The position numbers and the translations under genes are program-made. DNA of 63,386 bases from Nitrospirota bacterium (lineage in GTDB: Bacteria; Nitrospirota; UBA9217): contig JAGVOT010000107.1 of assembly GCA_020052615.1 (NCBI GenBank), forward strand, positions 1-63,386, written 5' to 3'. Of this stretch, positions 13,744-45,195 are shown one piece after another. Every line of letters begins with the position of its first letter. Position 1 is the stretch's first letter. The notes beneath the pieces are model-generated. The model was not told the origin of the DNA, ran no database searches, and saw only the letters and a program-made list of their open reading frames with translations.

Positions 13744-14967
13744 ATGCCGAGTTGCCGGATGTGCAAAGGGACGGATCTGTCCCAGTTCCTGGACCTCGGC
13801 TTTACACCGCCGGCCGATCATTTCCTCCGGAAGGAACAGCTGAACGAGCCGGAGGTGTCGTACCCGCTCCGCGTCCTGGTCTGCGCTGACTGCGGGCTGG
13901 TCCAGTTGAGCCACGTCGTCTCGCCGGAGATCCTCTATCGTCACGATTATCCCTATGAATCCTCCATCACCAGGACCGGGCACCTGCACTGGAACGAGTT
14001 TGCCCGGTCCTCGGCGGAGCGGTTCGGGCTGGGGCCCGACGACCTGGTCGTCGACATCGGCAGCAACGTGGGTGTGCTGCTGGAGGCCTTCAAGGCGCAG
14101 GGGCCCCGCGTCCTCGGCGTCGATCCGGCCAGCAACATCGTTCGGATAGCCGAAAAACGGGGGGTCGAGACGCTCTGCGAGTTTTTCAGCATGGATGCGG
14201 CGCGGCATATCCTGTCGAAGCACGGACCGGCTGATCTGATCACCGGCACCAACGTCGTCGCCCACATCGACGACTTCGACGGCCTGGTGCGGGCGGTCAC
14301 GACGCTTCTCAAGCCGCGCGGCGTCTTCGTTCTCGAGGCCCCCTATTTTGTGAACCTCGTCAAAAGCCTGGAATACGATACGATCTATCACGAGCACCTT
14401 TCCTACCTGTCGGTGAGACCGCTGGCCCGTTTTTTCGAGCGCTTTGACCTGGAGATCTTCGATGTGCAGCAGCGTGACATCCACGGGGGGTCGTTTCGGG
14501 TCTTCGTCGCAGCAGCAGGGACCTTCCCCGCGGCGCCCGTGGTCGGGGAGATGCTGCGGCAGGAGGAGTCCCTGGGCATAACGTCGCTCCCGGTCCTCAA
14601 CAAGTTCGCCCGGGCCGTTGAACGGAACCGGCAGGACCTTCTCTGGCTGCTCCGGTCGCTCAAGCATGAGAACAAGCGGATCGCCGGGGTCAGTGCGCCG
14701 GCAAAAGGCATGACGCTGCTGAACTATGCAGGGATCGGATTGGAAACGCTGGACTTCGTCACGGAAAAGTCGGCGCTCAAGATAGGCCGCTACACGCCGG
14801 GGAGGCATATCCCCGTGAGGCCTGATGACGCCCTGCTGGAGGAGATGCCGGAGTACGCCCTTTTGCTGGCCTGGAACTTTGCGGACGAGATCATGGATAA
14901 TCTTGCCGAATATCGTTCCCGCGGCGGCAAGTTCATCATACCCATACCGGAACCCAGGATCGTGTAA
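13744..14967 (+). CDS. Sugar C-methyltransferase (TylCIII/NovU type)
   Basis: 407 residues with the three-part layout of NDP-sugar C-methyltransferases. Residues 1-60 form the zinc-binding part (CRMCKGTDL and CADCGLVQLS, two CxxC pairs). Then comes the SAM-binding domain (VVDIGSNVGVLLEAFKAQG), and finally the C-terminal part with YDTIYHEHLSYLSVRPL, matching the conserved Y-x5-E-H region, and SAPAKGMTLLNYAGI. Enzymes of this group methylate C3 or C5 of a 4-keto-6-deoxy sugar nucleotide, giving a branched sugar. The following cupin and aminotransferase fit a deoxy-aminosugar pathway. No NDP-sugar synthase or dehydratase is in the window. Confidence 0.88.
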   Translation: MPSCRMCKGTDLSQFLDLGFTPPADHFLRKEQLNEPEVSYPLRVLVCADCGLVQLSHVVSPEILYRHDYPYESSITRTGHLHWNEFARSSAERFGLGPDDLVVDIGSNVGVLLEAFKAQGPRVLGVDPASNIVRIAEKRGVETLCEFFSMDAARHILSKHGPADLITGTNVVAHIDDFDGLVRAVTTLLKPRGVFVLEAPYFVNLVKSLEYDTIYHEHLSYLSVRPLARFFERFDLEIFDVQQRDIHGGSFRVFVAAAGTFPAAPVVGEMLRQEESLGITSLPVLNKFARAVERNRQDLLWLLRSLKHENKRIAGVSAPAKGMTLLNYAGIGLETLDFVTEKSALKIGRYTPGRHIPVRPDDALLEEMPEYALLLAWNFADEIMDNLAEYRSRGGKFIIPIPEPRIV

Positions 14968-14992
14968 GGGACCGGGAGGAGAAAGGCCAGGC

Positions 14993-15388
14993 ATGAAAAA
15001 AATACCACTCCGGCCCGCGTTCAGCGATGAACGGGGCACGATCATCGATGTCATTGATCATGAGACGATCAACGCGGTCACGCTGATCACCTTTACGAAA
15101 GGGGCCGTACGGGGAAACCATTACCACAAGGAAACCATCCAGTGGAACTACCTGATGTCCGGAAAGGTCCTGCTGCGCACGCGCAGGAACGGCCAGGAGG
15201 CTGTCGATACGATCATGGCGCCGGGAGACCTGAACAGCACAGGTCCCGAGGAACATCATGCGCTCCTGGCCCTGGAAGATTCAGAGATGATGTTCTTTAC
15301 CAAAGGGCCCCGGGGGGGCAAGGAATATGAGACCGATACGTTCAGGATGGAAGTTCCGCTGATCGATCCGAACACCCCCGGGATTTGA
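14993..15388 (+). CDS. Cupin-fold sugar epimerase/isomerase-like protein
   Basis: 131 residues from ATG 14993, with GGAGGA 12 bases upstream. A single cupin barrel is visible: FSDERGTIIDVIDHE, then RGNHYHKETIQWNYLMSG and GPEEHHALLALED, supplying candidate metal/active-site His residues. Small cupins of this kind in glycan loci include 3,4-ketoisomerases (FdtA/QdtA) and RmlC-like epimerases; the next gene is an aminotransferase, as in FdtA-FdtB pairs. The exact reaction is not certain. The stop overlaps a possible TTG start of the next gene. Confidence 0.7.
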   Translation: MKKIPLRPAFSDERGTIIDVIDHETINAVTLITFTKGAVRGNHYHKETIQWNYLMSGKVLLRTRRNGQEAVDTIMAPGDLNSTGPEEHHALLALEDSEMMFFTKGPRGGKEYETDTFRMEVPLIDPNTPGI

Positions 15389-15402
15389 CGGGTTTGGCTC
15401 CC

Positions 15403-16536
15403 ATGGAAGAGAACAAGGATCTCATACCGGTATGCGAACCGCTCCTGAACGGGAACGAGCTGAAGTATGTCACCGAGGCCGTTACGACCGGATGGATCTC
15501 CTCGAGCGGTCCATTTGTCAGGAAGTTCGAAGAGGGTTTCGCCCGGTATTGCGGCGCACGGTACGGCGTCGGTGTCTGCAACGGTACAACCGCGCTCCAT
15601 CTCGCTGTTGTATCCCTGGGACTGGGCAGCGGCGATGAGGTGGTCATCCCGGACTTCACGATGGCGTCGACGGCATTTGCCCTTTGTTATGCCGGCGCGA
15701 TGCCGGTGTTCGTGGATGCCGAGCCGGACACCTGGAACATCGACCCCCGGAAGATCGAGGAAAAGATCACGCCGCGGACGAAAGCGATCATGGCGGTCTC
15801 CCTCTTCGGCCATCCCTGCGACATGGATCAGGTCCAGGCCATTGCGGACAGACATGGATTGATCGTGGTCGAAGATGCCGCCGAGTCCCATGGCGCGGAA
15901 TACCGGGGCAGGAAGACGGGCAGCCTTGCCCGCGTCACGGCGTTCAGCTTCTTTGCCAACAAGAACCTGACAACGGGCGAGGGCGGGATGGTGGTGACGG
16001 ACGATGAAGACCTGTATCGGAAATGCCTGTATTACCGCAATGTCTGTTTTCCCCCTGATGAGCCCAGAAATTACCGGCACGACGATATCGGCTTCAATTA
16101 CCGGCTTTCGAACCTTCACGCCGCCATCGGGCTTGCTCAAGTTGAAAAGGCCGATGACTATTGCCGGATGCGCATTCACAACCACGGTCTCTATCGCAAG
16201 CACCTTGATGGCATCGGGGGCGTCACCCTGCAGGCAACCAGGGACACGGTGCTGCATGTTCCCTGGATGAACGGCATGGTGGTCGACCCGGACGCGTACG
16301 GCAGGACACGGGACGAGCTGATGGAACAGCTCGCGAGAAACAATATCGAGACCCGCCTGTTCTTTCTCGGGATGCACCGGCAGCCGGCGCTGCTGAAATA
16401 CGGCTGCGACGGCAGCGGGAACTATCCTGTTTCCGACGGCCTTGCCGACAACGGCATGTATCTGCCGTCAGCCAGCGGTTTGCGCGAGGAACAGATCCGG
16501 CATATCTGCCGCATCATACGTGAGTTCCAAAGGTGA
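15403..16536 (+). CDS. DegT/DnrJ/EryC1 sugar aminotransferase (perosamine synthase-like)
   Basis: 377 residues from ATG 15403 (TTG 15385, overlapping the cupin stop, is possible). The PLP-binding features are clear: CNGTTALHLA (phosphate), VVEDAAESHGAEY (Asp to pyridine N) and FSFFANKNLTTGEGG with the Schiff-base lysine K187. The opening NELKYVTEAVTTGWISSSG closely resembles GDP-perosamine synthase (Per/RfbE). It transfers an amino group to a keto-sugar nucleotide, probably C4 of a 4-keto-6-deoxyhexose; the position is inferred. It overlaps the next gene by 4 bases. Confidence 0.85.
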   Translation: MEENKDLIPVCEPLLNGNELKYVTEAVTTGWISSSGPFVRKFEEGFARYCGARYGVGVCNGTTALHLAVVSLGLGSGDEVVIPDFTMASTAFALCYAGAMPVFVDAEPDTWNIDPRKIEEKITPRTKAIMAVSLFGHPCDMDQVQAIADRHGLIVVEDAAESHGAEYRGRKTGSLARVTAFSFFANKNLTTGEGGMVVTDDEDLYRKCLYYRNVCFPPDEPRNYRHDDIGFNYRLSNLHAAIGLAQVEKADDYCRMRIHNHGLYRKHLDGIGGVTLQATRDTVLHVPWMNGMVVDPDAYGRTRDELMEQLARNNIETRLFFLGMHRQPALLKYGCDGSGNYPVSDGLADNGMYLPSASGLREEQIRHICRIIREFQR

Positions 16537-17787: not shown

Positions 17788-18591
17788 ATGAAGCCGCCTC
17801 GATACCTCCTCCGGGAAGCCGTCGTGAAAAAGATCCTTCGGCACCGGGAACGCGGCAGGTTCCTGGAGATCGGGTACGGCCAGGGACAGATGCTCGTGAC
17901 CCTGGCCGGGATGGGCTTCCGGGGGGACGGGTACGATCGCTCGCGGCCTGCGCGGCGGGCGGCGGAGGACCTGCTGAGATCGCGCGGCGTCACGGGGATC
18001 ACCCTGCTGGACGAGCTGAACGACGGAGCAGAATATGACTATATCCTGTTCTTCGAGGTGCTTGGCTATTGGCAGGACCCTGCGCGGGAGATGGCGCGCC
18101 TGGGCCGCAGGCTGAAGCCCGGGGGAGCGATGATCTTCTCCTTTTCCAATCAGCGGTCCGCGGGGCACGCAGAAAAACGGACCGGGGAGATGCAGTGCTA
18201 TACGCGCAGCCAGGTCATCGCCATGGTCGAGGGCGGCGCCGGCCTCGTCGTGGACCAGTGCTGGAATTACGGCTTCCCGCTGACGAACATGCTGAAGCCC
18301 GTTCTCGACCTCTTTCATCGGATCAGGCCCCGGGGAGGACCGGAGGACCGGGAGCAGGAGGCGGACAACAGCGGGCTGGCGGGCAGGTTTCTCCCTGTCC
18401 GGCTTGCGTCTCTGATCTTGAACGCTGTTACGATCTCTCCGTTCGTGGTGATGCAGGACCTGTTCCGGGACTCCGACCTGGGCACGGGGTATGTTGTCGT
18501 TGCTGAAAAGACCGGTCCCCGGCAGGGCGCGGCGCAGGACCGGCCAGCCGGCCCCGCCGGAACAACAACCGAGACAGGGAGACGGCAATGA
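17788..18591 (+). CDS. Class I SAM-dependent methyltransferase
   Basis: 267 residues from ATG 17788 after GGGGAA (17778-17783). The SAM-binding motif I is FLEIGYGQGQMLVTLAGMG (residues ~24-42); YDYILFFEVLGYW and LGRRLKPGGAMIFSFSN follow as motifs II and III. The C-terminal third (from residue ~180) has a hydrophobic stretch and may hold acceptor or membrane contacts. Its place between a GT4 and a B12 radical SAM gene suggests glycan or lipid methylation; the substrate is unknown. Its stop overlaps the next start (ATGA). Confidence 0.8.
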   Translation: MKPPRYLLREAVVKKILRHRERGRFLEIGYGQGQMLVTLAGMGFRGDGYDRSRPARRAAEDLLRSRGVTGITLLDELNDGAEYDYILFFEVLGYWQDPAREMARLGRRLKPGGAMIFSFSNQRSAGHAEKRTGEMQCYTRSQVIAMVEGGAGLVVDQCWNYGFPLTNMLKPVLDLFHRIRPRGGPEDREQEADNSGLAGRFLPVRLASLILNAVTISPFVVMQDLFRDSDLGTGYVVVAEKTGPRQGAAQDRPAGPAGTTTETGRRQ

Positions 18592-20075
18592 GGGTTGTTC
18601 TTACCCAGGCCCATAAAAGCTGGAGATTCGCGACGAACAACCTGGTCATACCCAACAGCTTGCTGTACATCGGGGCGTCTCTCGAGAAGGCGGGCCATGA
18701 GGTCGTATTGATCGATCCCCTGGTGCACGACCTGTCGCTCCAGGAGCTGATGGCAAAGATCAAGGCGGCCAGGCCGGACCTCGTCGGGCTCTACATGACC
18801 ACGGACAGCCGGTTCCGGGCCTTCGAGCTCATCGCCGAGGTCAAGCGCTCCCTGGGGGTGCCGGTCATGGCGGGCGGGCCCCACCCGTCCTTCTGCGCCG
18901 ACGATACGCTGAAGCACGCCGAAGGCCTGGACATCATCGTGCGCGGCGAGGGGGACCGGAGCGCAGCTGAAGTAGCCGACGCGCTGGCGCGCGGTGCGGT
19001 GGACCTCGGCCATATCCCGAACGTGTCCTTCAAGCGGGGCCGGGAGGTCGTGCACAATAAGGAATTCTCCGTCGTCGAGGACCTCGATACGCTCCCCTTT
19101 CCGGCGTACCATCTGATCGATCTCGACTCGTACCGGTTCTTCCTCCCCGTGCCCGGACAAGGGCTGAAGAAGGCGGTCCCCGTCTTCTCGGGCAGGGGAT
19201 GCCCGCAAGGCTGCATTTTCTGCGCATCGACCCATCTCTGGCAGCGGAAAGTGCGGACGCTGAGCACGGGGCGGCTCCTGGAGCAGATCGATATGCTCAA
19301 GGGCGCCTACGGCATAGAGTACGTGGCCTTTTTCGACGATACCTTCAACATCTCCCGGGGCCGCCTGGAGCAGTTCTGCAGGGAGGCGATCGACCGGAAA
19401 CTGGGCATCTTCTGGGACGCCCAGATCAGGGCGACCAACGTGGATGAGGACCTGCTCAGGCTGATGCAGGCGGCGGGCTGCGTGGAGATCTGTTTCGGCA
19501 TCGAGTCGGGAAATGAGTACGTCAGGAATTCGGTCATCAGTAAGAATATCTCCAACGAGAATATCTATAAACTTGACGAAACAGCCCATGCAATAGGGTT
19601 GTCCTGCGGTGTCAATTTCATGGTCAGTTTTCCGGGAGAAACAAAACAGCAGGCTGATGATACCTTTCGCATGATCGGCAGACTGAAATCCAAGATATTC
19701 ATCAACATGACCAAGATCTATCCGGGGACGCGCCTTGAGGCGATCGCAAAGGAAAAAGGGATCCTCAAGCCCGGCTTCCGCTGGTCCGACCCGAAGGGAT
19801 ACAAGAAGTATGCGCCCCTCTATCTTCCCGGGCTGTTCGGGGACATCCCCTTTTACAAGGAAAAGCTGAGCTATGCCTATATCTTCGAGAAGTTCTTCGA
19901 GATAACCCAGTCCGACCGGTGGGGTCTCGACAAGAAGAAGTTCTCCCTGACGCGGCTGCTGAAGAAGTACCTGTCCAGCATCGATTACTACCGGGACCTC
20001 GTGATGCTGTTCTTCATCGGCATCGGGTTCATCCGGTGGAAGGTCAAAAAGATCGCAAACAGGGGCGCTCATTGA
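18588..20075 (+). CDS. B12-binding radical SAM enzyme
   Basis: 495 residues from ATG 18588 (4-base overlap with the methyltransferase). The N-terminal B12-type domain shows VIPNSLLYIGASLEKAGHEV, MAGGPHPSFCAD and IIVRGEGDRSA. The SAM cluster motif is GRGCPQGCIFC with C205, C209 and C212, followed by ICFGIESGNEYV and VNFMVSFPGETKQQA. A ~110-residue C-terminal extension ends in a hydrophobic stretch near residue 475. The substrate is unknown. It belongs to the same broad group as the genes at 12114 and 29586. Confidence 0.88.
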   Translation: MRVVLTQAHKSWRFATNNLVIPNSLLYIGASLEKAGHEVVLIDPLVHDLSLQELMAKIKAARPDLVGLYMTTDSRFRAFELIAEVKRSLGVPVMAGGPHPSFCADDTLKHAEGLDIIVRGEGDRSAAEVADALARGAVDLGHIPNVSFKRGREVVHNKEFSVVEDLDTLPFPAYHLIDLDSYRFFLPVPGQGLKKAVPVFSGRGCPQGCIFCASTHLWQRKVRTLSTGRLLEQIDMLKGAYGIEYVAFFDDTFNISRGRLEQFCREAIDRKLGIFWDAQIRATNVDEDLLRLMQAAGCVEICFGIESGNEYVRNSVISKNISNENIYKLDETAHAIGLSCGVNFMVSFPGETKQQADDTFRMIGRLKSKIFINMTKIYPGTRLEAIAKEKGILKPGFRWSDPKGYKKYAPLYLPGLFGDIPFYKEKLSYAYIFEKFFEITQSDRWGLDKKKFSLTRLLKKYLSSIDYYRDLVMLFFIGIGFIRWKVKKIANRGAH

Positions 20076-22950: not shown

Positions 22951-23877
22951 ATGGCTAAGGTACTGATCATAAAACTCGGCTATTCCGAGACCATCGACAA
23001 CCGGATCGAGAAGATCACCAGCCTGGGAGATGTGCTCCGCACCACGGTCATCCTCGCCAGGTTCAAGAACGACCATGTCACGTGGCTCGTTGATGAGAAC
23101 GCCTATCCGCTGCTCGAAGGGAATCCCTATATCCATCGCATCCTCACCTATGACCTGTCGGCCGTGCTGCAACTGCAGCGCGAACGCTACGATACGGTCG
23201 TCAATCTGGAGAAAGTGCCCGGCATCTGCGCCCTGGCCGATTCCATCTCTGCATGGCGCCGCCATGGCTTTCGGTTCGACGAAGTGAGGGGACAAGCCGA
23301 GGCGTACGACGGATGCGAGAATATCTTCACGCTGTGCAAGGACGAGGAGCTTAAACGAAGACACACCGGCAACTGGCAGCAGGCCCTCCTCGAGGTCGTG
23401 GGCGGGACCTGGGAGGGGCAGGAGTATATCCTCGGCTACCGGCCGAAAACGGCGGAAACCATTGACGTGGGACTGAATTGGGCCGTAGGCTCCAAGTGGC
23501 CGAACAAGGCATGGCCACGGGAGAACTGGGAGACGCTCAAGAAACTGATGGACGGTGAGTACACCTATTCGATGCAGCAGGGGCTTGACAGTCTGCATGC
23601 GTACATGGACTGGATCAATTCCTGCCGTCTGGTCGTCACCAACGACAGCCTCGGCCTGCACATTGCGCTCGCGCTTCGGAAGAAGGTCGTGGTCCTGTAC
23701 GGACCGACGAACTCGAACGAGACCTGGTTCTACGGAAGGGGAGAGCTGCTGTACCCGCCGGTGGATTATTCGTGCCTTCCCTGCATCAGCACGAACTGTA
23801 CACAACAGAAGACGTGCATGGAATTCATCGAACCGATCGCGGTGAAACAGAAGGTCGACAAGCTTTTGAAATCCTAG
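22951..23877 (+). CDS. GT9 (ADP-heptose:LPS heptosyltransferase-like) glycosyltransferase
   Basis: 308 residues from ATG 22951, with GAGGGAG (22939-22945) correctly spaced. It opens VLIIKLGYSETID followed by TSLGDVLRTTVIL (family 9 N-terminal loop). The C-terminal domain has VVTNDSLGLHIALALRKKVV and VVLYGPTNSNETW, the GT9 His/Gly donor region. A Cys cluster near the end (YSCLPCISTNCTQQKTC) is common in this family. It probably adds a heptose or related sugar to a core oligosaccharide. Confidence 0.85.
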   Translation: MAKVLIIKLGYSETIDNRIEKITSLGDVLRTTVILARFKNDHVTWLVDENAYPLLEGNPYIHRILTYDLSAVLQLQRERYDTVVNLEKVPGICALADSISAWRRHGFRFDEVRGQAEAYDGCENIFTLCKDEELKRRHTGNWQQALLEVVGGTWEGQEYILGYRPKTAETIDVGLNWAVGSKWPNKAWPRENWETLKKLMDGEYTYSMQQGLDSLHAYMDWINSCRLVVTNDSLGLHIALALRKKVVVLYGPTNSNETWFYGRGELLYPPVDYSCLPCISTNCTQQKTCMEFIEPIAVKQKVDKLLKS

Positions 23878-23919: not shown

Positions 23920-24990
23920 ATGCAAGACGAATTCCGCATCGACAGTCACAAACTGATGTTCCATCCTCGCCGCGTGGCGGGATGGCTCTCCGGCGAGAAG
24001 ATCTACCCACTCTACGCGGAGCTATCCCCGTCCGGCGCCTGCAACCACCGGTGCACGTTCTGCGCGCTCGATTATATGGAATACCGTCCCCGGTTTCTGG
24101 ACACGGCGACCCTGAAGGAGCGTCTGAGCGAAATGGGGCTGCTGGGAGTGAAGAGCGTCATGTACGGCGGGGAAGGGGAACCCTTACTTCACCGCGATAT
24201 CGGCGACATCATCGTTCACACACGGAAAGCAGGCATCGACGTAGGCGTCACGACGAACGGTGTGCTGCTGACGGCGAAACTGGCGGAGCAGGTCCTGGCA
24301 AGCACGGCCTGGATCAAGGTGAGCCTGAATGCGGGCACCGCCGAGACCTATGCAAAGATTCATCGGACGAAGCCCGAGGATTTCGAACGGGTTTTCGCGA
24401 ACCTGCGGGATGCCGTCCGCATCAGGCGGGAGACCGGCGCGCGCTGTACCATCGGGGTTCAGATCCTCCTGCTTCCTGAGAACGCTGGAGAGATTGAGAC
24501 GCTGGCCGGCAAGGCGAAAGACGCAGGCCTGCGGTATATGGTGGTGAAGCCGTATTCCCAGCACCACAAGAGCCGAACGAGGACTTACGCGGACGTGGAC
24601 TATGGGCAATTCCGGCATCTCAAGGAAAGGCTTGTCCGGTTCGAGGACAGTGCATTCAGCGTCATCTTCCGCGAACGGACCATGCAGAAAATGACGAAGC
24701 CGGTCCGGGGATACGAGCGGTGCCTCGCGCTGCCGTTCTGGTCCTACATCGATTCCGACGGAAACGTCTGGGGCTGCAGCGCGTACCTCGGAGACGAACG
24801 GTTTCGCTACGGGAACATCCAGCGGCAGTCCTTCGAACAGATTTGGCACGGCGCTCTGCGTCAGGCAAACCTGCACCTGGCCGGGGCGGAACTGGACCCC
24901 GAGTCGTGCCGGATGAACTGCCGTATGGACGAGATCAACCTGTACCTCTGGGAACTGACCCATCCCAGAGGGCATGTGAATTTCATCTAG
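23920..24990 (+). CDS. Radical SAM enzyme with SPASM-like C-terminus (paralogue of 28374)
   Basis: 356 residues. The SAM cluster is C41, C45, C48 (ACNHRCTFC), followed by MYGGEGEPLLHRDI and VGVTTNGVLLTAK. A C-terminal auxiliary-cluster-like region runs from about residue 265: RCLALPFWSYIDSDGNVWGC, then CRMNC and the tail THPRGHVNFI. The gene at 28374 has the cluster at the same residues and the same HVNFI end. There is no peptide precursor nearby; the glycan context suggests a sugar or lipid substrate. It sits ahead of a GT2 and a split transketolase. Confidence 0.87.
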   Translation: MQDEFRIDSHKLMFHPRRVAGWLSGEKIYPLYAELSPSGACNHRCTFCALDYMEYRPRFLDTATLKERLSEMGLLGVKSVMYGGEGEPLLHRDIGDIIVHTRKAGIDVGVTTNGVLLTAKLAEQVLASTAWIKVSLNAGTAETYAKIHRTKPEDFERVFANLRDAVRIRRETGARCTIGVQILLLPENAGEIETLAGKAKDAGLRYMVVKPYSQHHKSRTRTYADVDYGQFRHLKERLVRFEDSAFSVIFRERTMQKMTKPVRGYERCLALPFWSYIDSDGNVWGCSAYLGDERFRYGNIQRQSFEQIWHGALRQANLHLAGAELDPESCRMNCRMDEINLYLWELTHPRGHVNFI

Positions 24991-25026
24991 GGAAACACCC
25001 GTCCCCATGCGCGGACGAGGAGCACT

Positions 25027-25812
25027 ATGTATTATACGATCACCATCATCATTCCTGCCCTGAACGAGGAGCAGTCGCTCGACGGCAGCGTCGAGAACGT
25101 ACTGTCCGCGTTCCATAGCTGTTCGGTCCGGGGGGAACTGATCATCGTCGATGACGGCAGCGGCGACCGGACCGGCGCGCTTGCAGAAGCGTGGGCGTCC
25201 CGGCACGATTTCATCCGAGTGCTGCATCATGACCGGCCGCAGGGGATCGGCGCCGCCTTCTGGGACGGCGTGCAGCATGCACGGGGCGAGGTCGTTGCCA
25301 TGCTCCCCGGAGACGGCGAGAATGATGCCGCCGAGATCCTCTGCTATCTCCCGCTCATGGCCAAGGTAGATATCGTGGTTCCTTTCGCCTTCAATCCGAA
25401 GGTGCGGCCGTGGCGTCGTCGCTTCCTGTCCTTCCTCTACCACGAGATCGTCTACATCACGTTCTCCCTGGCGCTCAACTATCTGAACGGCACGGTGATG
25501 TACCGGAGGTCCATCCTGCGGGATATCACACTGAAGAGCACGGGGTTCTTCTACCAGACCGAGCTGCTTATCAAGACCATCATCGGCCATAATTATCTGT
25601 ATGCCGAGGTCCCCTATGCCCTGCGCAAGCGTCGGGGCGGCAGGTCGAAGGCCACCACGCTCTGGTCGTTCCTGCGGGTGGCCGGGTCCTACCTGCGGAC
25701 CATCCAGGACGTCAACCCGCTTAAGCGGACCTATGCCCCCGTCACTCCCGACTCCATCACCGCGCGCAGGCTGAGGGAACTGGCGGACTCCGTAGCAGGT
25801 CTGGAGCAATGA
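25027..25812 (+). CDS. GT2 glycosyltransferase
   Basis: 261 residues from ATG 25027 after GAGGAG (25018-25023). The GT-A motifs are IIPALNEEQSLDGSVENVL, IIVDDGSGDRTG and AMLPGDGENDAAEI; unlike its relative at 7842 it has no C-terminal helices beyond one moderately hydrophobic stretch (residues ~138-155). It is similar to DPM1-like synthases. The stop overlaps the transketolase start by 4 bases, tying it to that pathway. Confidence 0.83.
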   Translation: MYYTITIIIPALNEEQSLDGSVENVLSAFHSCSVRGELIIVDDGSGDRTGALAEAWASRHDFIRVLHHDRPQGIGAAFWDGVQHARGEVVAMLPGDGENDAAEILCYLPLMAKVDIVVPFAFNPKVRPWRRRFLSFLYHEIVYITFSLALNYLNGTVMYRRSILRDITLKSTGFFYQTELLIKTIIGHNYLYAEVPYALRKRRGGRSKATTLWSFLRVAGSYLRTIQDVNPLKRTYAPVTPDSITARRLRELADSVAGLEQ

Positions 25813-26600
25813 ACACGACGGGGATCAGCGATACGGCCCGCCGCATCAGGCGGGAGATCATCGAGATGGCATACCGCTCCGGCGGCCCCCATGTCGGGTC
25901 GGCCCTGTCCTGCGCCGATATCATGGCCACCCTGTACGACGGGGTCCTGCGGCTGGAGCCGTGGGAGCAGAGGGATATCTTTATTCTCAGCAAGGCCCAT
26001 GCTGCCATGTCGCTGTATGCGGCCCTTGCCATCAAGGGGATCCTTGATGCGAAGAGCCTGGAAAGTTATTGCCGCGATCGCGGTGCGCTGCCTGCGCACC
26101 TGGACAGGTTCTCCGCTCCCGGGATCGAATGTTCGGCGGGGTCGCTCGGTCACGGGCTCAATATCGGTCTCGGCATGGCCTACGGTTTCAACCGGCAGCG
26201 CTGCGACCGCCGCGTGTTCATCCTGATCGGCGACGGCGAGTCCCAGGAAGGTTCCGTCTGGGAAGGCGCGCTGTTCGCTCCGCGCCTGGGGCTCGGGAAT
26301 GTCACGGTCATCATGGATTACAACAACCTCCAGGGCTATGGACGGCCGCGCGAGATCTGCGGCTTCGAGCCGGTGCAGGCGAAATGGGAGGCCTTCGGCT
26401 GGCAGGTCGTCCTGACGGACGGCCACGATTGCCAGGCCCTGCTCAGGGCCCTGACGGCCGCATCGGACGGACGTCCGCGCATCGTAATCGCCAACACGGT
26501 TAAAGGGAAGGGCGTCTCTTTCATGGAGGATCAGCTCATCTGGCATTATTACACGGTCACTACCGAGCATCATGACCGCGCATTGAGGGAGCTGGCATGA
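25809..26600 (+). CDS. Transketolase-like enzyme, N-terminal (TPP-binding) subunit
   Basis: 263 residues: only the first third of a classical transketolase. Conserved parts are SGGPHVGSALSCADIMATLY, ILSKAHAAMSLYAAL, SAGSLGHGLNIGLGMA, the TPP/metal motif GDGESQEGSVWEGALFA...NN, and KGKGVSFMED with WHYYT. The partner half follows with a 4-base overlap. Split transketolases occur in primary metabolism and also in loci for unusual sugars. Here, beside an SDR and radical SAM genes, it probably moves a two-carbon ketol unit in making a special sugar (inference). Confidence 0.88.
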   Translation: MNTTGISDTARRIRREIIEMAYRSGGPHVGSALSCADIMATLYDGVLRLEPWEQRDIFILSKAHAAMSLYAALAIKGILDAKSLESYCRDRGALPAHLDRFSAPGIECSAGSLGHGLNIGLGMAYGFNRQRCDRRVFILIGDGESQEGSVWEGALFAPRLGLGNVTVIMDYNNLQGYGRPREICGFEPVQAKWEAFGWQVVLTDGHDCQALLRALTAASDGRPRIVIANTVKGKGVSFMEDQLIWHYYTVTTEHHDRALRELA

Positions 26601-27520
26601 GGAACACCTTCATCGATGCCGTGATCGCCCGGGGCGGCAACGATCTCATGATCGTGAGCGGGGACGCGGGATTGGGGGTCTTCGACGAATTCCGGCGGGA
26701 AGTCCCGGATTCATTCCTGAATCTCGGCGTGGCCGAACAGAACATGGCCAGTTTTGCCGCCGGCCTTGCCCTGACGGGCCATAAAGTTTACGTCTATAAC
26801 ATCATTCCTTTTCTCCTCTATCGCTGCTACGAGCAGGTCCGGAATGATATCTGTTACCAGAAGTTGCCCGTGGTCATGGTCGGTGTGGGAAGCGGCGTTA
26901 CCTATGCCCCTGCCGGCATGTCGCACTATGCCGTCGAGGACCTCGGGCTCGCGGCGACACTGCCGAACCTGACGGTCCTCTCTCCCTGCGACGCCCGGGA
27001 AGCTCAAACGGCTGCCGACTTCACGCTCACTGCGCCGGGTCCGGTCTACGTGCGGCTCGCGAAGCGGGGGGAACGTGCCATACACGGGACGCCGGTCCCG
27101 GACATCCTGCAGCCCCTCGTTGTCTCGGCTCCCGATGCCGCTGACTGTGCGATCCTGTTCCACGGTTCTATCGCCGATGACGTGATGGATGCCGGAAAAC
27201 TGCTGAAAGAGCGGGGAATCAGCGCCAGGGTCATATCGTTGCCCTGCCTGCAGCCTCTGCAGGAAGATGTCCTGTTGGATATGCTCCAGGGAGTTCGGAT
27301 GGTCGTGACGGTCGAAGAGCATTACGCGGAGACGGGCCTGGGCGGATCGGTCGCCCGGCTTGCAGCGAATCGCCGCCCGGCATGGAAACTCAGGGAACGG
27401 GGAATTCCGAACCGCTTTCTGCATGAGATCCATGATGCGGGTGGGATGCGAAGATGTTTCGGACTGAATGCAGCCGCCTTGGCCCGGGACATCGAGGGGT
27501 GGCTGAACGATGGCCGATAG
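26597..27520 (+). CDS. Transketolase-like enzyme, C-terminal subunit
   Basis: 307 residues. The pyrimidine-binding domain shows IVSGDAGLGVFDEF, then FLNLGVAEQNMASFAAGLAL with the Glu expected to activate the TPP ring, and GVGSGVTYAPAGMSHYAVED. The C-terminal transketolase domain follows (DCAILFHGSIADDVMDAGKL; VVTVEEHYAETGLGG). Together with the upstream gene it makes a complete heteromeric enzyme. It overlaps the following reductase gene by 11 bases. Confidence 0.87.
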   Translation: MRNTFIDAVIARGGNDLMIVSGDAGLGVFDEFRREVPDSFLNLGVAEQNMASFAAGLALTGHKVYVYNIIPFLLYRCYEQVRNDICYQKLPVVMVGVGSGVTYAPAGMSHYAVEDLGLAATLPNLTVLSPCDAREAQTAADFTLTAPGPVYVRLAKRGERAIHGTPVPDILQPLVVSAPDAADCAILFHGSIADDVMDAGKLLKERGISARVISLPCLQPLQEDVLLDMLQGVRMVVTVEEHYAETGLGGSVARLAANRRPAWKLRERGIPNRFLHEIHDAGGMRRCFGLNAAALARDIEGWLNDGR

Positions 27521-28373
27521 AAGAAAGATACTGTTGCTCGGCGACAGCGGCAAAATGGGGCGGGCTCTTCGGCAAGCAGGTGCAGGAGCCGACGAGATCA
27601 TCTGTCACAACAGCCGCACCTTCGATGCCGCTGATTTCGGACAGGTCCGGGCAATCATCGAGCAAACCCGTCCTGACCTGCTGCTGAACACGGTTGCGTT
27701 CCTGGGCATCGATCCCTCAGAGAAGGAACCTGAAAAGGCAATGCGATTGAACGCGCTCTACCCGCGGCTTCTTGCGGAATGCTCACGCGAACAGGACTTC
27801 ACCCTGGTCCATTTCAGCACCGACGCCGTGTTCAGCGATGCAGGACAGGATGCATATGTTGAGAGCGACGGGGCGGGCCCGGTGAATATCTACGGCTTGA
27901 CCAAGTTCGGCGGAGACTGCTTTGTCCAGTCCCTGGCGCGGCGGTATTATATCTTCCGGGTGTCGCTCCTGTTCGGCCCCACTGACCGGCAGACCCAGTT
28001 CGTGGAGCGCATGCTGGGCAGGATCCGGGCTGGCGAGAAGAAGCTCCGGATCGCAGATGACATCGTATGCTCCCCGACGTTCACGCCGGATGCTGCAGCA
28101 GCTGCACTGCGGATCGTCAGGCAGCAGGAACCCTACGGCCTGTATCATTTGGTCAACGCAGGCGCCGCTTCCCTGTATGAGCTGATGCACCGCATCGTTC
28201 GTGAGTTGAACGTCGACATCGAGGTGGAACGGGGGTCCCACCGGGACTTCCCCGCCATAGGAAGGAAGAATACCAGAACGCCGCTCCGCTCCGAGAGGAT
28301 CGCGCCGCTACGGCCATGGGAAGACGCGGTCGCGGACTACTGCCGGGGCGTGGCATTGGAATGGAGCAGGTAG
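27510..28373 (+). CDS. RmlD-like NAD(P)-dependent sugar reductase (SDR superfamily)
   Basis: 287 residues, close to the usual RmlD length. The N-terminal nucleotide loop is ILLLGDSGKMGRAL; LLNTVAFLGIDPSEKEPEKA replaces the NAAAYTAVDxAE of true RmlD. The catalytic set is present: HFSTDAVF (Ser/Thr) and YGLTKFGG (YxxxK). GPTDRQTQFVERML and CSPTFTPDAAAAAL follow family order. It probably reduces a keto-sugar nucleotide, perhaps the product of the adjoining transketolase. It ends directly against the next radical SAM gene. Confidence 0.82.
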   Translation: MADRRKILLLGDSGKMGRALRQAGAGADEIICHNSRTFDAADFGQVRAIIEQTRPDLLLNTVAFLGIDPSEKEPEKAMRLNALYPRLLAECSREQDFTLVHFSTDAVFSDAGQDAYVESDGAGPVNIYGLTKFGGDCFVQSLARRYYIFRVSLLFGPTDRQTQFVERMLGRIRAGEKKLRIADDIVCSPTFTPDAAAAALRIVRQQEPYGLYHLVNAGAASLYELMHRIVRELNVDIEVERGSHRDFPAIGRKNTRTPLRSERIAPLRPWEDAVADYCRGVALEWSR

Positions 28374-29459
28374 ATGACCGATAAGTTCGTCATGGATGGG
28401 CATAAGCTGCATTGGCACCTGGACCGCGTCGTCGACTGGCAGCGTGGAAAACGGATCGCCCCGCTCCATATCGATGTGGGCCTGAGCAAGGGCTGCAACA
28501 TCCGCTGCATCTACTGTTTCGGCGCCATGCAGGGGAACAGTTACCGGGAGGGGGCCACAGCATATTTCCCCCGGGAGCCGCTCCTCCGCTATCTTCAGGA
28601 TGCCGGGGCGGTCGGGGTGCGATCTATGGCATTTGTCGGCGAGGCGGAGCCGTTGCTCAATCCGCATGTTTACGAAGCGGTCGTATGCGGCAAGAAGAGC
28701 GGAGTGGATATCGCACTGGGAACGAACGGCATCCTGTTCGACACCGGCAAAAAAGGGGAGGAGGCGTTGGAGCACCTTACCTGGATGCGTTTCAATATCA
28801 GCGCGGCCTCCGGCGATGCCTACCAGAGGATCCACGGGAGCGGCGCCTTCGATGGGGCCCTGCGAAAGATCAAGCACTGCGTGGATGTGAAGCGCCGCAA
28901 CCGGCTGAACGTCACGATCGGATTGCAGATGGTGCTCATGCCGGAGAACGTCGATCAGGTGATACCGCTGGCGCAGCTCGGGAGAGAAACCGGCGTGGAT
29001 TATCTCGTCATCAAGCAATGCAGCGACTCCGTCGAGAACACCCTCGGAGTCTTCAAGCGGCTCGACCAGTACGACATGTTCTCCGATGTACTCGCCCAGG
29101 CAGAGGCCCTGACCAGCGACGACTATTCCGTGATCGTCAAATGGCGCAAGGTGACCAACCGGGGAAAACGCAGCTACGAGCGTTGTCTCGGCATCCCCTT
29201 CCTTCTGTATTCGAGCGGCGACGGTCGGCTGTATCCCTGCGGGGCGTTTTTCGATCATCGCGAAGAGGAATTCCGCATGGGAGACCTGACTGAGCGATCG
29301 TTCAAGGAAATCCTGGAAAGCGAGCGTTACTGGGATGTGGTGGAGCGGGTCAGGAACATCGATGTCCGGTCTGTTTGTTATTCGAATTGCCGGACCGATG
29401 CGGTAAACGATTTTCTGTGGAGATTGGCCCACCCGCCCGACCACGTCAACTTCATCTGA
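28374..29459 (+). CDS. Radical SAM enzyme with SPASM-like C-terminus (paralogue of 23920)
   Basis: 361 residues; the ATG follows the upstream TAG with no gap. Cluster cysteines C41, C45, C48 (GCNIRCIYC) are at the same residues as in the 23920 product. AFVGEAEPLLNPHVYE and IALGTNGILFDTG match MYGGEGEPLLHRDI and VGVTTNGVLLTAK there. The C-terminal region has RCLGIPFLLYSSGDGRLYPC, CYSNC and the tail AHPPDHVNFI. The two enzymes flank the GT2/transketolase/reductase cassette and may act on successive intermediates. The substrate is unknown. Confidence 0.87.
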   Translation: MTDKFVMDGHKLHWHLDRVVDWQRGKRIAPLHIDVGLSKGCNIRCIYCFGAMQGNSYREGATAYFPREPLLRYLQDAGAVGVRSMAFVGEAEPLLNPHVYEAVVCGKKSGVDIALGTNGILFDTGKKGEEALEHLTWMRFNISAASGDAYQRIHGSGAFDGALRKIKHCVDVKRRNRLNVTIGLQMVLMPENVDQVIPLAQLGRETGVDYLVIKQCSDSVENTLGVFKRLDQYDMFSDVLAQAEALTSDDYSVIVKWRKVTNRGKRSYERCLGIPFLLYSSGDGRLYPCGAFFDHREEEFRMGDLTERSFKEILESERYWDVVERVRNIDVRSVCYSNCRTDAVNDFLWRLAHPPDHVNFI

Positions 29460-29585: not shown

Positions 29586-31001
29586 ATGAAGATATGTTTT
29601 GTACAAAAACAGGCATTCCCCTATTTCGGCATCATGTCGCTGGCCGGCCGTCTGGGAGCTGCGGGCATCGAAAGCGACGTCGTGATCACAAACCTGGAGC
29701 GGGACTTCATCAGCGCTCTCAAGGAGAGCGCGCCGGACATCATCGGGATTTCCTGTCTTAGCACGGAGCATGCGTGGCTGAAGGATACGGCAGAAAGGAT
29801 CAAAACAACCTTCCCGTCGACCGCGCTGATGGCGGGAGGCATCCATGCCATCCTGTACCCGGAGACGGTGCTTGCGATCCCGGCGATCGACTTTGTCTGC
29901 ACTGGTGAAGGGGAGGGGACGATCCTGGCGCTCTGCTCGGCGATCGCCGAAGGATCCTCCGTCGACCAGATCAAAGGGATCGGCTATCGTCGCCAGGGAC
30001 AGCCCGTGCTGAATGGCCGCGAAACGGACGTAGTCGATGTCAATGACAGCTTCGAAGACCGGCTGGTCTACTACCGGCGTTACGCCCTGCTGCGTGAGGA
30101 TGAACTGAAACAGTTCATATCCTCGCGCGGCTGTCCGTACCAGTGCACATTCTGCTTTAACCAGCAGCTGCACCGGCTTTTCCCGGCCCAGAAAAACCGC
30201 GTTCGCAGGAAATCCCCGAAGCACCTGGTGGAGGAGATCGAACGTGCGCGGGCCACGGCGCCGATCCTGGCGGTCTTCTTCGCAGACGACCTTTTCACTT
30301 CCAGCAAGAAATGGCTGCAGGAGTTCGTCCCCCTCTACCGGCAGCGGATCGGGGTGCCCTTCATGTGCATTACCCGGGCCGATCACCTGGATGACGAGAC
30401 GGGCGAGTTGCTCAAACGGGCCGGCTGTCATACGGTAAGCTTCGGGATCGAAAGCGGCAGTGAGGAGATCAGGACGCGCCTGCTCAGGAAGCAGATAACG
30501 GATGCGGCGATCATCCGCTGCAGCGATGTTCTTACACGCAAAGGGATCCGCATTCAGACGTCGAACATGTTCTGTCTGCCCGACGAGACGCTTGAGGACG
30601 CATTGAGCACGGTCAAGCTCAATATCCGGATCAAAGCGGATTTCGTCTTCACCCCGATCTTCATGCCCTTTCCCGGGACAGAACTGGCGGCCTATTGTAT
30701 CGAAAAGAACTATTTGCCGGACGACTTCGGCTTTGAGCACCTTCCCCAGTCGTTCCTCCGTCACAGCATCCTTGCCCTTCCCGACCGCAAACGGATCGAG
30801 AACGTACAGCGGATCGCCTATTTTCTCGTAAAATATCCGGCTCTGTTCAGAATGGCAGAACCGCTTGTCCGCCACGTGCGGGCCGCATGGTGCTATTATC
30901 CGTTTCTTTTTATCGGGACCCTGCTGCGGTATAAGTCCGAACGGGGGATATCGCTTGCAGGCGCCATCCGGTTCCTCTGGCGGTTCAGAAAGAGTTATTG
31001 A
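29586..31001 (+). CDS. B12-binding radical SAM enzyme
   Basis: 471 residues from ATG 29586; no strong RBS is visible in the 126-base gap upstream. The B12-type domain shows GIMSLAGRLGAAGIESDVVI, MAGGIHAILYPE and FVCTGEGEGTIL. The SAM cluster is C183, C187, C190 (SRGCPYQCTFC), then HTVSFGIESGSEEIRTRL and CLPDETLEDALSTV. The last ~90 residues are hydrophobic in part (YYPFLFIGTLL), suggesting membrane association. It is the third such enzyme in the locus, followed by two small membrane proteins. Confidence 0.88.
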   Translation: MKICFVQKQAFPYFGIMSLAGRLGAAGIESDVVITNLERDFISALKESAPDIIGISCLSTEHAWLKDTAERIKTTFPSTALMAGGIHAILYPETVLAIPAIDFVCTGEGEGTILALCSAIAEGSSVDQIKGIGYRRQGQPVLNGRETDVVDVNDSFEDRLVYYRRYALLREDELKQFISSRGCPYQCTFCFNQQLHRLFPAQKNRVRRKSPKHLVEEIERARATAPILAVFFADDLFTSSKKWLQEFVPLYRQRIGVPFMCITRADHLDDETGELLKRAGCHTVSFGIESGSEEIRTRLLRKQITDAAIIRCSDVLTRKGIRIQTSNMFCLPDETLEDALSTVKLNIRIKADFVFTPIFMPFPGTELAAYCIEKNYLPDDFGFEHLPQSFLRHSILALPDRKRIENVQRIAYFLVKYPALFRMAEPLVRHVRAAWCYYPFLFIGTLLRYKSERGISLAGAIRFLWRFRKSY

Positions 31002-31022
31002 TTCCCAGTGAGGTGGCGTCCT

Positions 31023-31544
31023 GTGGGAGAGTTGTTGCTGGCATCCGGCACCGTTATCCTGGCCTTCGCGGTTCATGTGCTGGTCTGGAAGATCAGGCTG
31101 CCCCGGAAACAGACCCGTGCGATCATCCTGATATTCTTCGGCGTTCTTGCCGCGGTCGTGATCACGTTGCCGCGCATCGCCGGCATGCTGCCCGTGCTCG
31201 GGTTGCGCGAACCGGTGCCGCTTCCGGTCTACCTGAATATCATCTGCTTCGTCGTGTCGATCGCGCTGGCTTACATGATCACGTACTCCGCGGTCGAGGT
31301 CGACAGCCCTTCTCTCATCATGGTCCTCGCCATATACCGGGCAGGGGACGCCGGACTGGCGGTACGGCATTTCAACGAAATCCTGAACGATGCGTTGCTT
31401 GTAGAGCCGCGGATCAGAGACCTCGAATTCGACAGGATGGCAACACGCAATGGCGAAGTATATCAACTGACAGCCAAGGGAAGGCTTATGGCGCGGATAT
31501 TCATCCTGCACCGCAGGCTCCTTGGAGCCGGAAAAGGAGGGTAG
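31023..31544 (+). CDS. Small membrane protein with winged-helix-like C-terminus
   Basis: About 173 residues. GTG 31023 has AGGTGG (31011-31016) six bases upstream and is preferred to GTG 31008, which has none. Three helices (residues ~5-25, 35-58, 70-95) are followed by a cytoplasmic-looking part, YRAGDAGLAVRHFNEILNDA...YQLTAKGRLMARIF, whose LTxKGRxxA segment resembles the wing end of winged-helix domains. No family is recognised. The next gene has the same layout, so the two may be a heteromeric pair. Confidence 0.72.
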   Translation: MGELLLASGTVILAFAVHVLVWKIRLPRKQTRAIILIFFGVLAAVVITLPRIAGMLPVLGLREPVPLPVYLNIICFVVSIALAYMITYSAVEVDSPSLIMVLAIYRAGDAGLAVRHFNEILNDALLVEPRIRDLEFDRMATRNGEVYQLTAKGRLMARIFILHRRLLGAGKGG

Positions 31545-31548
31545 GAGC

Positions 31549-32082
31549 ATGACAACCGGTTTTCTTCCTGTGGCCGCTCCACTGCTCTGTCTTATGGCGA
31601 ATGTTTCGGTACAGATGCTCGCCTTCCGTCTTCGTCCTGAGTTTGGACTCCTTCGATCGGAATATCTGGGTTTCGCTGCGGGACTGGCGGGGGTCATCGC
31701 ATTACATCTGGTGCACCTTTCGTCAGTGCCGCTTCCGGGATACGGCGATATCGCGGGAGGAGCGTTGCAGAGCCTGATATCCTATGCGGCACTTGGGTAT
31801 TGCTATTTTCATTTTGTCAATCTTGGCGAAACGGCACGCCGGATCAGATTACTGAGGGAACTGCAGGATGGCGGCGGACGTCTCAGTCACCGGCAGCTTC
31901 TGACGAGGTATAATGCCGCGGAGATCGTCGGGCGACGGCTGAAGCGATTGCTTGGTACCGGTCAGATCGTGCTGCGCGATGAGCGCTATTTCATCGGGAA
32001 TCCTGCCGTGCTATCGATCGCCAAAGCCATGGTGATGCTTAAAGTCCTGTTGCTGGGGAAAACAAGCGAGTATGATGCATAA
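31549..32082 (+). CDS. Small membrane protein with winged-helix-like C-terminus (partner)
   Basis: About 177 residues from ATG 31549, preceded by GGAG at 31544-31547 and AAGGAGGG at 31534-31541. Three or four helices cover residues 1-95; then LLRELQDGGGRLSHRQLLTR and VGRRLKRLLGTGQIVLRDER form a likely winged-helix domain. The topology mirrors the preceding protein although the sequences differ. It overlaps the next radical SAM gene by 11 bases. A regulatory or scaffold role at the membrane is a guess. Confidence 0.7.
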   Translation: MTTGFLPVAAPLLCLMANVSVQMLAFRLRPEFGLLRSEYLGFAAGLAGVIALHLVHLSSVPLPGYGDIAGGALQSLISYAALGYCYFHFVNLGETARRIRLLRELQDGGGRLSHRQLLTRYNAAEIVGRRLKRLLGTGQIVLRDERYFIGNPAVLSIAKAMVMLKVLLLGKTSEYDA

Positions 32083-32968
32083 CGAAAAAGAAGATCAACC
32101 GTTCGAATCGGCAGGTCCGAATCCGATCCGGATCCCCGACAACTACAACTACATCGCTGTGTTCCTCACCCTGGACTGTCCGCTCAGGTGCAGCTACTGC
32201 ATCAATCGGTTCGGCGGCGAGGCGGGGCGGCCGCAGAGAATGCTTTCCGGCAGGGAATGGGTTCTCGGGCTGAACAGGCTGGTAACACGTCCGGACCTTC
32301 CCATTACCCTGCAGGGAGGCGAACCGAGCCTGCATCCCGATTTTTATGACATTCTTGCCCATCTCCGTCCCGATATCAATATCGACCTGCTAACAAACCT
32401 GGAATTCGACGTTGAGGAGTTCATCACCCGGGTGGATCCTCGCCGTATCAAACGGGAGGCTCCCTATGCTTCGATCAGGGTGAGCTATCATCCCGAGATG
32501 ATGGACCTTGCTGCGCTCATCAAGAAGGTGCTTCGCCTGCAGGATGCCGGGTTCAGCGTCGGCATCTGGGGGGTACTGCACCCGGACCAGGAGCAGGATA
32601 TCCATGCGGCTCAAGAGCGTGCACGGAAAGCGGGGATTGATTTCAGAACGAAGGAATTCCTGGGTAAGTATAAAGGCAAACTGCACGGCAGCTATAAATA
32701 TCCCGGCGCTTGCGACGGTCACCGCAAACGCCCGGTGGAGTGCAGGACCACCGAACTGCTGATCGGTCCGTCGGGCGGCGTATACCGGTGTCACAGCGAT
32801 CTGTATAACGGACGGGGCGAGATCGGGCACATGACCGATCCGGACTTCGTGATCAATGAAATATTCCGGCCGTGCGAGGCTTTCGGCAGCTGCAATCCCT
32901 GCGATGTAAAGATAAAGACCAACAGATTCCAGGTAGACGGTCATACCTCGGTCGAGATACGGGGATGA
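32072..32968 (+). CDS. Radical SAM enzyme
   Basis: 298 residues (ATG 32072, or 32075 directly after). The cluster motif is C36, C40, C43 (DCPLRCSYC), then LPITLQGGEPSLHPDFYDIL, the GGEP motif that binds SAM, and IDLLTNLEF. The C-terminus has ECRTTELLIGPSGGVYRCHS and FGSCNPC, cysteine-containing segments resembling a reduced SPASM or twitch region. It is distinct from the HVNFI-ending pair. Its overlap with the small membrane gene suggests one operon from 29586 to here. Confidence 0.84.
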   Translation: MMHNEKEDQPFESAGPNPIRIPDNYNYIAVFLTLDCPLRCSYCINRFGGEAGRPQRMLSGREWVLGLNRLVTRPDLPITLQGGEPSLHPDFYDILAHLRPDINIDLLTNLEFDVEEFITRVDPRRIKREAPYASIRVSYHPEMMDLAALIKKVLRLQDAGFSVGIWGVLHPDQEQDIHAAQERARKAGIDFRTKEFLGKYKGKLHGSYKYPGACDGHRKRPVECRTTELLIGPSGGVYRCHSDLYNGRGEIGHMTDPDFVINEIFRPCEAFGSCNPCDVKIKTNRFQVDGHTSVEIRG

Positions 32969-44869: not shown

Positions 44870-45190
44870 ATGAAAACAACGGTCCTGGATGTTCAGAAGC
44901 TCAAGAAGTTCGATGATGCGAAGCGCCACCAGGAGACGATCTGGTCGGACAAGCACTCGAAGATCAACCTGCTCTGCATGAAACCGGGCCAGGAGATCAC
45001 GACTCATACCCACCACGGGAACCACATGTGGGTGGTCATGGAGGGGAGCGGCGAATTCCGCTCGGCGGGGGAGACGCAGGCCATCGAGAAGGGGAAGATC
45101 GTCATCGTTCCGCCGCTCGTGGATCACGGGATCAAGAACACGTCCCCGGGGGACCTCGTCATCGCGTCCTTTACGGCGCAGGGTGATTGA
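44870..45190 (+). CDS. Single-domain cupin protein of the GeoRSP operon
   Basis: 106 residues from ATG 44870 after GAGGAG (44859-44864). The cupin motifs are HTHHGNHMWVVMEGSGEF (metal-ligand His residues) and VPPLVDHGIKNTSPGD. A TTG in frame with the PqqD-like gene overlaps its stop, so it is probably in the same operon as the radical SAM genes. Its function is unknown; it could sense a small molecule or process a modified product. Confidence 0.8.
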   Translation: MKTTVLDVQKLKKFDDAKRHQETIWSDKHSKINLLCMKPGQEITTHTHHGNHMWVVMEGSGEFRSAGETQAIEKGKIVIVPPLVDHGIKNTSPGDLVIASFTAQGD

Positions 45191-45195
45191 ACAGG

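Follow-up and report, generated by a model that had tools for sequence, protein, structure and literature searches.

The 63,386-nucleotide contig JAGVOT010000107.1 of a Nitrospirota bacterium (assembly GCA_020052615.1, lineage UBA9217), referred to here as the window, carries within a glycan region a cassette in which two radical S-adenosylmethionine (SAM) proteins, RS1 and RS2, bracket a family 2 glycosyltransferase (GT2), the two halves of a split transketolase (TKN and TKC) and an RmlD-type short-chain dehydrogenase/reductase (SDR), with a GT9 glycosyltransferase directly 5′ of RS1 (Table 1). The gene content agreed with an earlier note, made from the sequence alone, that had described two matching radical SAM proteins at 23920 and 28374 with a GT2, both transketolase halves and an RmlD-like reductase between them; the Pfam matches of these intervening genes were to PF00535, Transketolase_N, Transket_pyr plus Transketolase_C, and RmlD. 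The same note had described the genes as overlapping, which holds for three junctions but not for the first and the last: intergenic distances from RS1 to RS2 were, in order, +36, −4, −4, −11 and 0 bp, spaced as in one operon. GC content and GC at third codon positions (GC3) of the genes from TKN to RS2 matched those of their neighbours, and the test of the swapped module (see below) for foreign composition was uninformative. NCBIfam matches of GT2 to AglJ and PpgS were weak and far under the cut-offs. The RmlD protein scored 172.7 bits against TIGR01214, under the 224-bit equivalog cut-off for dTDP-rhamnose reductase, and the ST and YxxxK catalytic motifs were present when it was aligned with 3sc6.

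Table 1. Genes of the cassette and an associated gene, with positions in the window, strand, assigned or proposed role and Pfam match.
Gene	Position	Strand	Description	Pfam match
GT9	22951..23877	+	Heptosyltransferase-family glycosyltransferase, directly 5′ of RS1	PF01075, E 1.5e-12
RS1	23920..24990	+	Radical SAM protein, twitch-like auxiliary domain (four Cys), C-terminal HVNFI; proposed to dehydrogenate a sugar alcohol to a ketone	PF04055 + PF13186
GT2	25027..25812	+	Glycosyltransferase, distantly similar to polyprenyl-phosphate-sugar synthases	PF00535, E 8.5e-21
TKN	25809..26600	+	N-terminal (thiamine diphosphate-binding) half of split transketolase	PF00456, E 9.8e-31
TKC	26597..27520	+	C-terminal half (pyrimidine + C domains) of split transketolase, with altered substrate pocket	PF02779 + PF02780
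RmlD	27510..28373	+	RmlD-type SDR reductase; proposed branch-ketone reductase	PF04321, E 8e-54
RS2	28374..29459	+	RS1-paralogous four-Cys radical SAM protein with HVNFI tail and invariant Cys216; proposed epimerase or second oxidation step	PF04055 + PF13186
rS32	32072..32968	+	Third radical SAM protein; possible associated gene of GT9-type RS1 loci	PF04055

RS1 (356 aa) and RS2 (361 aa) aligned over their full length with 117 of 371 positions identical (32%, E = 6e-68). Both carry the CxxxCxxC cysteines at residues 41, 45 and 48, both end in HVNFI and both matched the Radical_SAM and SPASM domains of Pfam. The three cluster cysteines were kept in all 93 RS1 and all 49 RS2 homologues. The auxiliary cysteines C268, C286, C330 and C334 of RS1 were kept in at least 92 of 93 homologues, and no other auxiliary cysteine was conserved; because only these four are retained, the auxiliary domain is predicted to be twitch-like, with one cluster, rather than a full SPASM domain, so that the SPASM label of the earlier note stands only as a Pfam match. 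The histidine and phenylalanine of the H-x-N-F-[ILV] tail were found in 93 of 93 RS1 homologues and in 46 of the 47 RS2 homologues long enough to include it, and we regard the shared tail, on this conservation, as not due to chance. A C-terminal H-x-x-F-[ILV] was present in nearly all relatives of RS1, RS2 and a third cousin, RS3, which adjoins a methyltransferase in many transketolase loci; the H-x-N-F version occurred in RS1 and RS2. On the tree, RS1 and RS2 formed separate, well-supported clades; they are therefore judged to be old paralogues, and a recent duplication was rejected.

AlphaFold models of RS1 and RS2 (predicted local distance difference test scores of 85.5 and 87.4) had DesII as the nearest fold in the PDB, with BlsE, SuiB and SkfB also near. 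The best NCBIfam match was TIGR04317, a tungsten cofactor oxidoreductase maturase, with 86.1 bits for RS1 and 60.6 bits for RS2 vs. a cut-off of 380. Roles as a metallocofactor maturase or a prokaryotic viperin were rejected, since the NCBIfam matches were far under their cut-offs and the PADLOC matches were at superfamily level only. Peptides are the substrates of many characterised SPASM and twitch enzymes, the structural neighbours include SuiB and SkfB, and PqqD is encoded about 16 kb from the cassette; RS1 and RS2 could on these grounds be maturases of a ribosomally synthesised and post-translationally modified peptide (RiPP), with the sugar genes as chance neighbours. We consider this highly improbable and rejected it, since there is no evident peptide-recognition domain at the N-terminus (residue 41 is already the first radical SAM cysteine), the cassette contains no PqqD, RiPP recognition element (RRE) or precursor gene, the genome's sole PqqD has a radical SAM partner of its own, and the linkage to glycosyltransferases and thiamine diphosphate (ThDP) enzymes described below extends across phyla. 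The statement in the earlier note that no peptide or PqqD-like gene is present is accurate for the cassette but not for the window, where the PqqD-like gene, at about 45.2–45.5 kb, stands in a row with a cupin gene, a SPASM radical SAM protein and a SPASM-only protein (44870–47403). These genes are perhaps a separate radical SAM system, peptide- or cofactor-related.

The usual companion of RS1 was a ThDP enzyme encoded by two genes. We compared 93 distinct RS1 loci, 83 of which had at least 4 kb of downstream sequence. Rather than standing mostly alone or beside peptide genes, RS1 was followed by a two-gene ThDP enzyme in 72 of the 83, immediately adjacent in 61, and the linkage was retained in 31 of 37 loci after thinning at 70% identity. 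The type of enzyme varied: 44 of the 72 loci encoded an E1-alpha/E1-beta pair like that of pyruvate dehydrogenase, and 28 a split transketolase. This exchangeability of the transketolase slot goes beyond the earlier note. At least 13 switches of ThDP type were counted on the RS1 tree, at least five of them forced by well-supported branches. In the nearest relative of the window's locus, a sister locus from the same family (L034/L074) whose RS1 is 77% identical, GT9, RS1 and rS32 are close relatives of those in the window, but the interior is occupied by the E1-like pair and another RS2. The ThDP module is thus swapped while the frame stays, which suggests that the two-carbon donor differs between the split transketolase and the E1-like pair but that the chemistry is equivalent. 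The exact order GT9-RS1-GT2-TKN-TKC-RmlD-RS2 was found again in Geobacter sp. OR-1 (L085) and in a deltaproteobacterial metagenome-assembled genome (MAG), RIFOXYD12 (L153), and the cassette is in this sense conserved in other genomes. A further locus (L037, on a contig shared with L101) has RS1-TKN-TKC-RmlD-RS2 followed by an E1-alpha/E1-beta module. GT2 lay downstream of RS1 in 45 of 73 loci.

Swapping of this kind could also be expected of a mosaic of unrelated glycan genes, brought together by serotype-like exchange and not forming a single pathway. The locus is indeed patchy (among the sampled genomes of the window's own family, RS1 occurred in only two, the window genome included), and modules have been exchanged between sister loci. 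We nevertheless regard a mosaic as improbable: the adjacency of RS1 and ThDP enzyme survived the thinning and spans several phyla as well as archaea, and each swap put an enzyme of the same chemical kind back into the slot.

Residues of the cassette transketolases were compared with those of Escherichia coli TktA (numbering from NC_000913.3); S385 and R358 were left unused, as their alignment was judged unreliable. The equivalents of the ThDP residues H26, H66, D155, E160, N185, H261 (where aligned), E411 and H473 were kept in all cassette transketolases. The substrate pocket in TKC was changed: H461 was replaced by G in 27 of 27 sequences and D469 by L, Q, A or M in 27 of 27, and R520 was never kept (K in 12, T in three, no aligned residue in 12). 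In the E. coli enzyme, H461, D469 and R520 are known to bind the sugar phosphate. The closest solved relative of both TKN and TKC, the split transketolase of Carboxydothermus (6yak/6yaj), retains the canonical sugar-pocket histidine and aspartate that the cassette enzymes have lost. TKC was only 160–183 aa long, without the C-terminal domain, in nearly half of the cassette transketolases; such short proteins, consisting of the pyrimidine domain only, were found beside RS1 in L035, L095, L099, L116, L123, L132, L135, L136, L139, L142, L144 and L150. A housekeeping transketolase was rejected as an identity for TKN and TKC, since the genome carries single-chain transketolase-type genes elsewhere. 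A pyruvate dehydrogenase E1-beta gene is likewise located outside the cassette.

A second regularity of the RS1 loci was their association with heptose genes. Among 65 loci with enough flanking sequence, a GmhA-like isomerase and/or HldE-rev, an HldE-like protein with its domains reversed (nucleotidyltransferase, then PfkB kinase), was present in 33, GT9 in 26, and both in none (Fisher p = 9e-13, a value that ignores relatedness; the split persisted after thinning). GT9 is a heptosyltransferase family. The two contexts combined freely with the two types of ThDP enzyme, with 15 E1-like pairs and 14 transketolases beside heptose genes vs. 15 and 10 beside GT9. The radical SAM gene rS32 was found in 25 of the 26 GT9-context loci and in none of the 33 HldE-rev/GmhA-context loci. 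By description, two published systems provide leads: a reversed-domain HldE of Coxiella burnetii (CBU0678) is required for full-length lipopolysaccharide (PMC5843353), and hldE, GSU2086 and gmhA of Geobacter sulfurreducens are required for growth on electrodes (PMC5585712). A gene of the GSU2086 family was present in the upstream block of the heptose-gene RS1 loci. The substrate of the cassette is, on this linkage, probably a heptose.

The same heptose genes allow another order of events, in which the transketolase acts early on free sugar phosphates and converts an aldose phosphate into an octulose or heptulose phosphate, the GmhA-like and HldE-like proteins turn this into a nucleoside diphosphate (NDP)-linked higher-carbon sugar, and RS1 and RS2 are later epimerases acting on the NDP-sugar or glycan. 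Transketolase naturally yields heptulose phosphates, and in the 33 loci counted above RS1 directly follows the GmhA-like and reversed HldE-like genes. Such an early role is nonetheless unlikely, given the loss of the sugar-phosphate residues H461 and D469 in every cassette transketolase, the free exchange of the slot for a pyruvate-type E1 pair, and the absence of HldE-rev from the window genome and from the GT9-context loci.

Each of the six close relatives of RS2 (window, L037, L041, L072, L085 and L153) had RmlD as its direct 5′ neighbour, and many transketolase loci were without RmlD. In RS2, Cys216 was present in 49 of 49 homologues, while the matching site in RS1 (Tyr212) was tyrosine in 92 of 93; in the AlphaFold model this site is at the end of barrel strand 6, from where the thiol could donate hydrogen in an epimerisation. 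The pairing of the two genes also resembles AprD4, a radical SAM enzyme that works with the NADPH reductase AprD3 in deoxygenation (PMC5461906). Read in that way, RS2 would be a radical diol dehydratase producing a ketone that RmlD reduces, RmlD would be unrelated to the branch proposed below, and its absence from many transketolase loci would fit. We hold this for possible but doubtful: RS2 bears a four-Cys auxiliary domain, the AprD4 model NF033070 was outside the best 25 of 32 NCBIfam matches of RS2, RS2 cousins that accompany the E1-like pair have no adjacent RmlD, and the invariant Cys216 fits epimerisation better.

Precedents for both types of ThDP enzyme come from antibiotic biosynthesis. 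Sugar ketones receive C2 branches from E1-like enzymes of two subunits (alphaKADH2; PMC12247030, a 2025 review), AviB1/B2 and Pau11/12 being further branching examples (PMC4425429, PMC4753412). For miharamycin and amipurimycin, split-gene transketolases have been suggested to transfer a hydroxyacetyl unit to a ketosugar that a separate oxidoreductase would make (PMC12247030). The E1-like pairs of our loci resemble alphaKADH2 (AviB1/AviB2, Pau11/Pau12, KbDH-alpha/beta) in being a two-gene E1-alpha/E1-beta enzyme within a sugar cluster, in the same slot as the window's split transketolase, and in having no E2 or E3 gene beside them in the relatives examined (L031, L032, L051); in alphaKADH2 pathways the branch ketone is sometimes reduced later, as we propose here. 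They differ in that alphaKADH2 enzymes belong to actinomycete antibiotic clusters, whereas the cassette has a radical SAM partner and a heptose/surface-glycan context, and the window itself carries the transketolase version. The review predicts 13 split transketolases, all of them Streptomycete and none yet assayed (PMC12247030); those of the cassette occur beside a radical SAM gene in Nitrospirota, Geobacteraceae and other deltaproteobacteria, Planctomycetota, Omnitrophota and Methanoperedens.

Branching by ThDP-dependent carboligation on a ketosugar also gives the C-branched O-antigen sugar yersiniose, but YerE is a single-chain, decarboxylase-type enzyme. To our knowledge, the YerE pathway obtains its ketone by dehydratase chemistry and has no twitch radical SAM partner of the kind found in the cassette. 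On the radical SAM side, BtrN is a four-Cys twitch enzyme whose oxidation of a cyclitol alcohol yields a ketone (PMC9012708); it shares with RS1 the combination of a radical SAM domain and a four-Cys auxiliary site and acts on a sugar-like alcohol, but the similarity is at profile level only (E 6e-7) and the fold match is weak (template modelling score 0.38 by query length). Among sugar-acting radical SAM enzymes, DesII, a TDP-sugar enzyme, and BlsE are closest to RS1 and RS2 in solved fold and in sequence, although they are only 14–21% identical, have other partners and act as lyase or decarboxylase. A literature search that covered few subscription papers returned no described radical SAM/transketolase glycan cassette. 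The components are of known kinds, and what appears new is the pairing of a radical SAM protein with an interchangeable ThDP enzyme, in a heptose context and in several phyla.

The cassette is best read as making a branched or C–C extended sugar, since each of the two ThDP enzyme types that fill the slot has a known or proposed role in sugar branching and heptose genes are linked to the loci. The earlier note had suggested an undescribed pathway to such a sugar, and the ThDP sugar-branching precedents (PMC12247030) and the heptose-gene linkage support that suggestion. More specifically, we give about an even chance to a modular cassette whose product is a surface-glycan sugar with a C-branch (extended by two carbons), probably heptose-based. 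The gene content and conservation, the linkage to ThDP and heptose genes, the exchangeability of the ThDP slot and the intact ThDP residues beside a changed pocket were computed here; from these we infer each reaction, their order, the heptose substrate and the product. RS1 would take a hydrogen from a carbinol carbon of a nucleotide-linked or glycan-bound heptose, and its auxiliary cluster would accept the second electron to give a ketone, as in BtrN. The split transketolase would then place a ThDP-bound hydroxyacetyl unit on this ketone, producing a tertiary alcohol with a two-carbon branch; where a sister locus has the E1-like pair instead, pyruvate would be the source of an acetyl unit. 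The RmlD-type SDR would turn the branch ketone into an alcohol, RS2 would make a further radical change, most likely an epimerisation with Cys216 as hydrogen donor, and GT2 and the neighbouring glycosyltransferases would build the sugar into the glycan. The neighbour that the ThDP enzyme keeps throughout is RS1, with the proposed role of supplying the ketosugar; that a twitch enzyme, instead of an SDR or dehydratase, unmasks the heptose ketone for an interchangeable two-gene ThDP enzyme adding a hydroxyacetyl or acetyl branch is a tentative proposal, to which we assign slightly less than even confidence.

Several points weigh against a branched-sugar cassette of this kind. No member of the cassette has a known activity or product, and the four auxiliary cysteines of RS1 do not prove a dehydrogenase. 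The loci were gathered by RS1 similarity, and most come from MAGs. In 11 of the 83 loci no ThDP pair was nearby, and RS1 may accordingly be independent of the ThDP enzyme; about half of these loci come from one Nitrospirota family, in which RS1 is usually found with heptose genes. RS2 was present in only 32 of 73 RS1 loci, and both RS2 and RmlD were absent from many RS1-ThDP loci, the two genes forming an accessory sub-module. HldE-rev is absent from the window genome, where GT9 constitutes the whole of the heptose link. Finally, the comparison with the Streptomyces split transketolases was made by description.

A genome scan with a profile of 22 RS1 sequences returned 382 relatives, the best 80 of which came from Nitrospirota, Geobacteraceae and other deltaproteobacteria, Planctomycetes including Brocadia, Omnitrophota, Elusimicrobia and Methanoperedens-type archaea. 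In a search of Nitrospirota, RS2 homologues were found in 46 of 396 genomes, many of which carried two. Two loci of Methanoperedens-type archaea (L091, L092) have the RS1-TKN-TKC cassette with HldE-rev/GmhA, an apparent transfer between domains. The plasmid search gave two informative loci, from Solidesulfovibrio and Azospirillum. The former, on plasmid pDCAR1 (L031), is a large modified-glycan island with a split transketolase, RS3, RmlD, an RS2-like gene, several methyltransferases and an MptE-like protein. Relatives found in phages were only 21–28% identical; in phage MW202801.1 (L033, 8001–9065) a distant radical SAM relative (22.5%) lies beside glycosyltransferases amid podovirus structural genes.

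The surroundings of the cassette in the window are also rich in radical SAM genes. At least seven are present in the window, counting three in the glycan region that encode proteins with a B12-binding domain (12114–13517, 18588–20075 and 29586–31001). Two small proteins of 178 and 186 aa without Pfam match (31008–32082) recur beside RS1/RS2 loci elsewhere. Farther upstream (13744–16536) are genes for a NovU/TylC3-type sugar C-methyltransferase (PF08421, PF13489, PF08484), a cupin-like protein and a DegT aminotransferase; with these, the glycan cluster likely encodes a second branched sugar, an amino sugar carrying a methyl branch.

Ketone-accepting split transketolases have so far only been proposed, in a few Streptomyces clusters and with none assayed (PMC12247030); the cassette adds dozens of candidates that share a constant partner and belong to other phyla, and the question is directly testable, as the named and sequenced Geobacter sp. 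OR-1 has the exact cassette. The findings point to a family of twitch radical SAM proteins (the HxNF-tailed RS1 and RS2, and RS3) that is tied to carbohydrates rather than peptides. Many of the hosts are bacteria, and some are archaea, of groundwater and sediment, and the heptose linkage points to heptose-based branched surface sugars in organisms important for groundwater and metal cycling. If the proposed relay between radical SAM and ThDP enzymes is true, anaerobic bacteria and archaea would hold a large unseen family of branched higher-carbon sugars, and sugar branching by split transketolases would reach far past Streptomyces.

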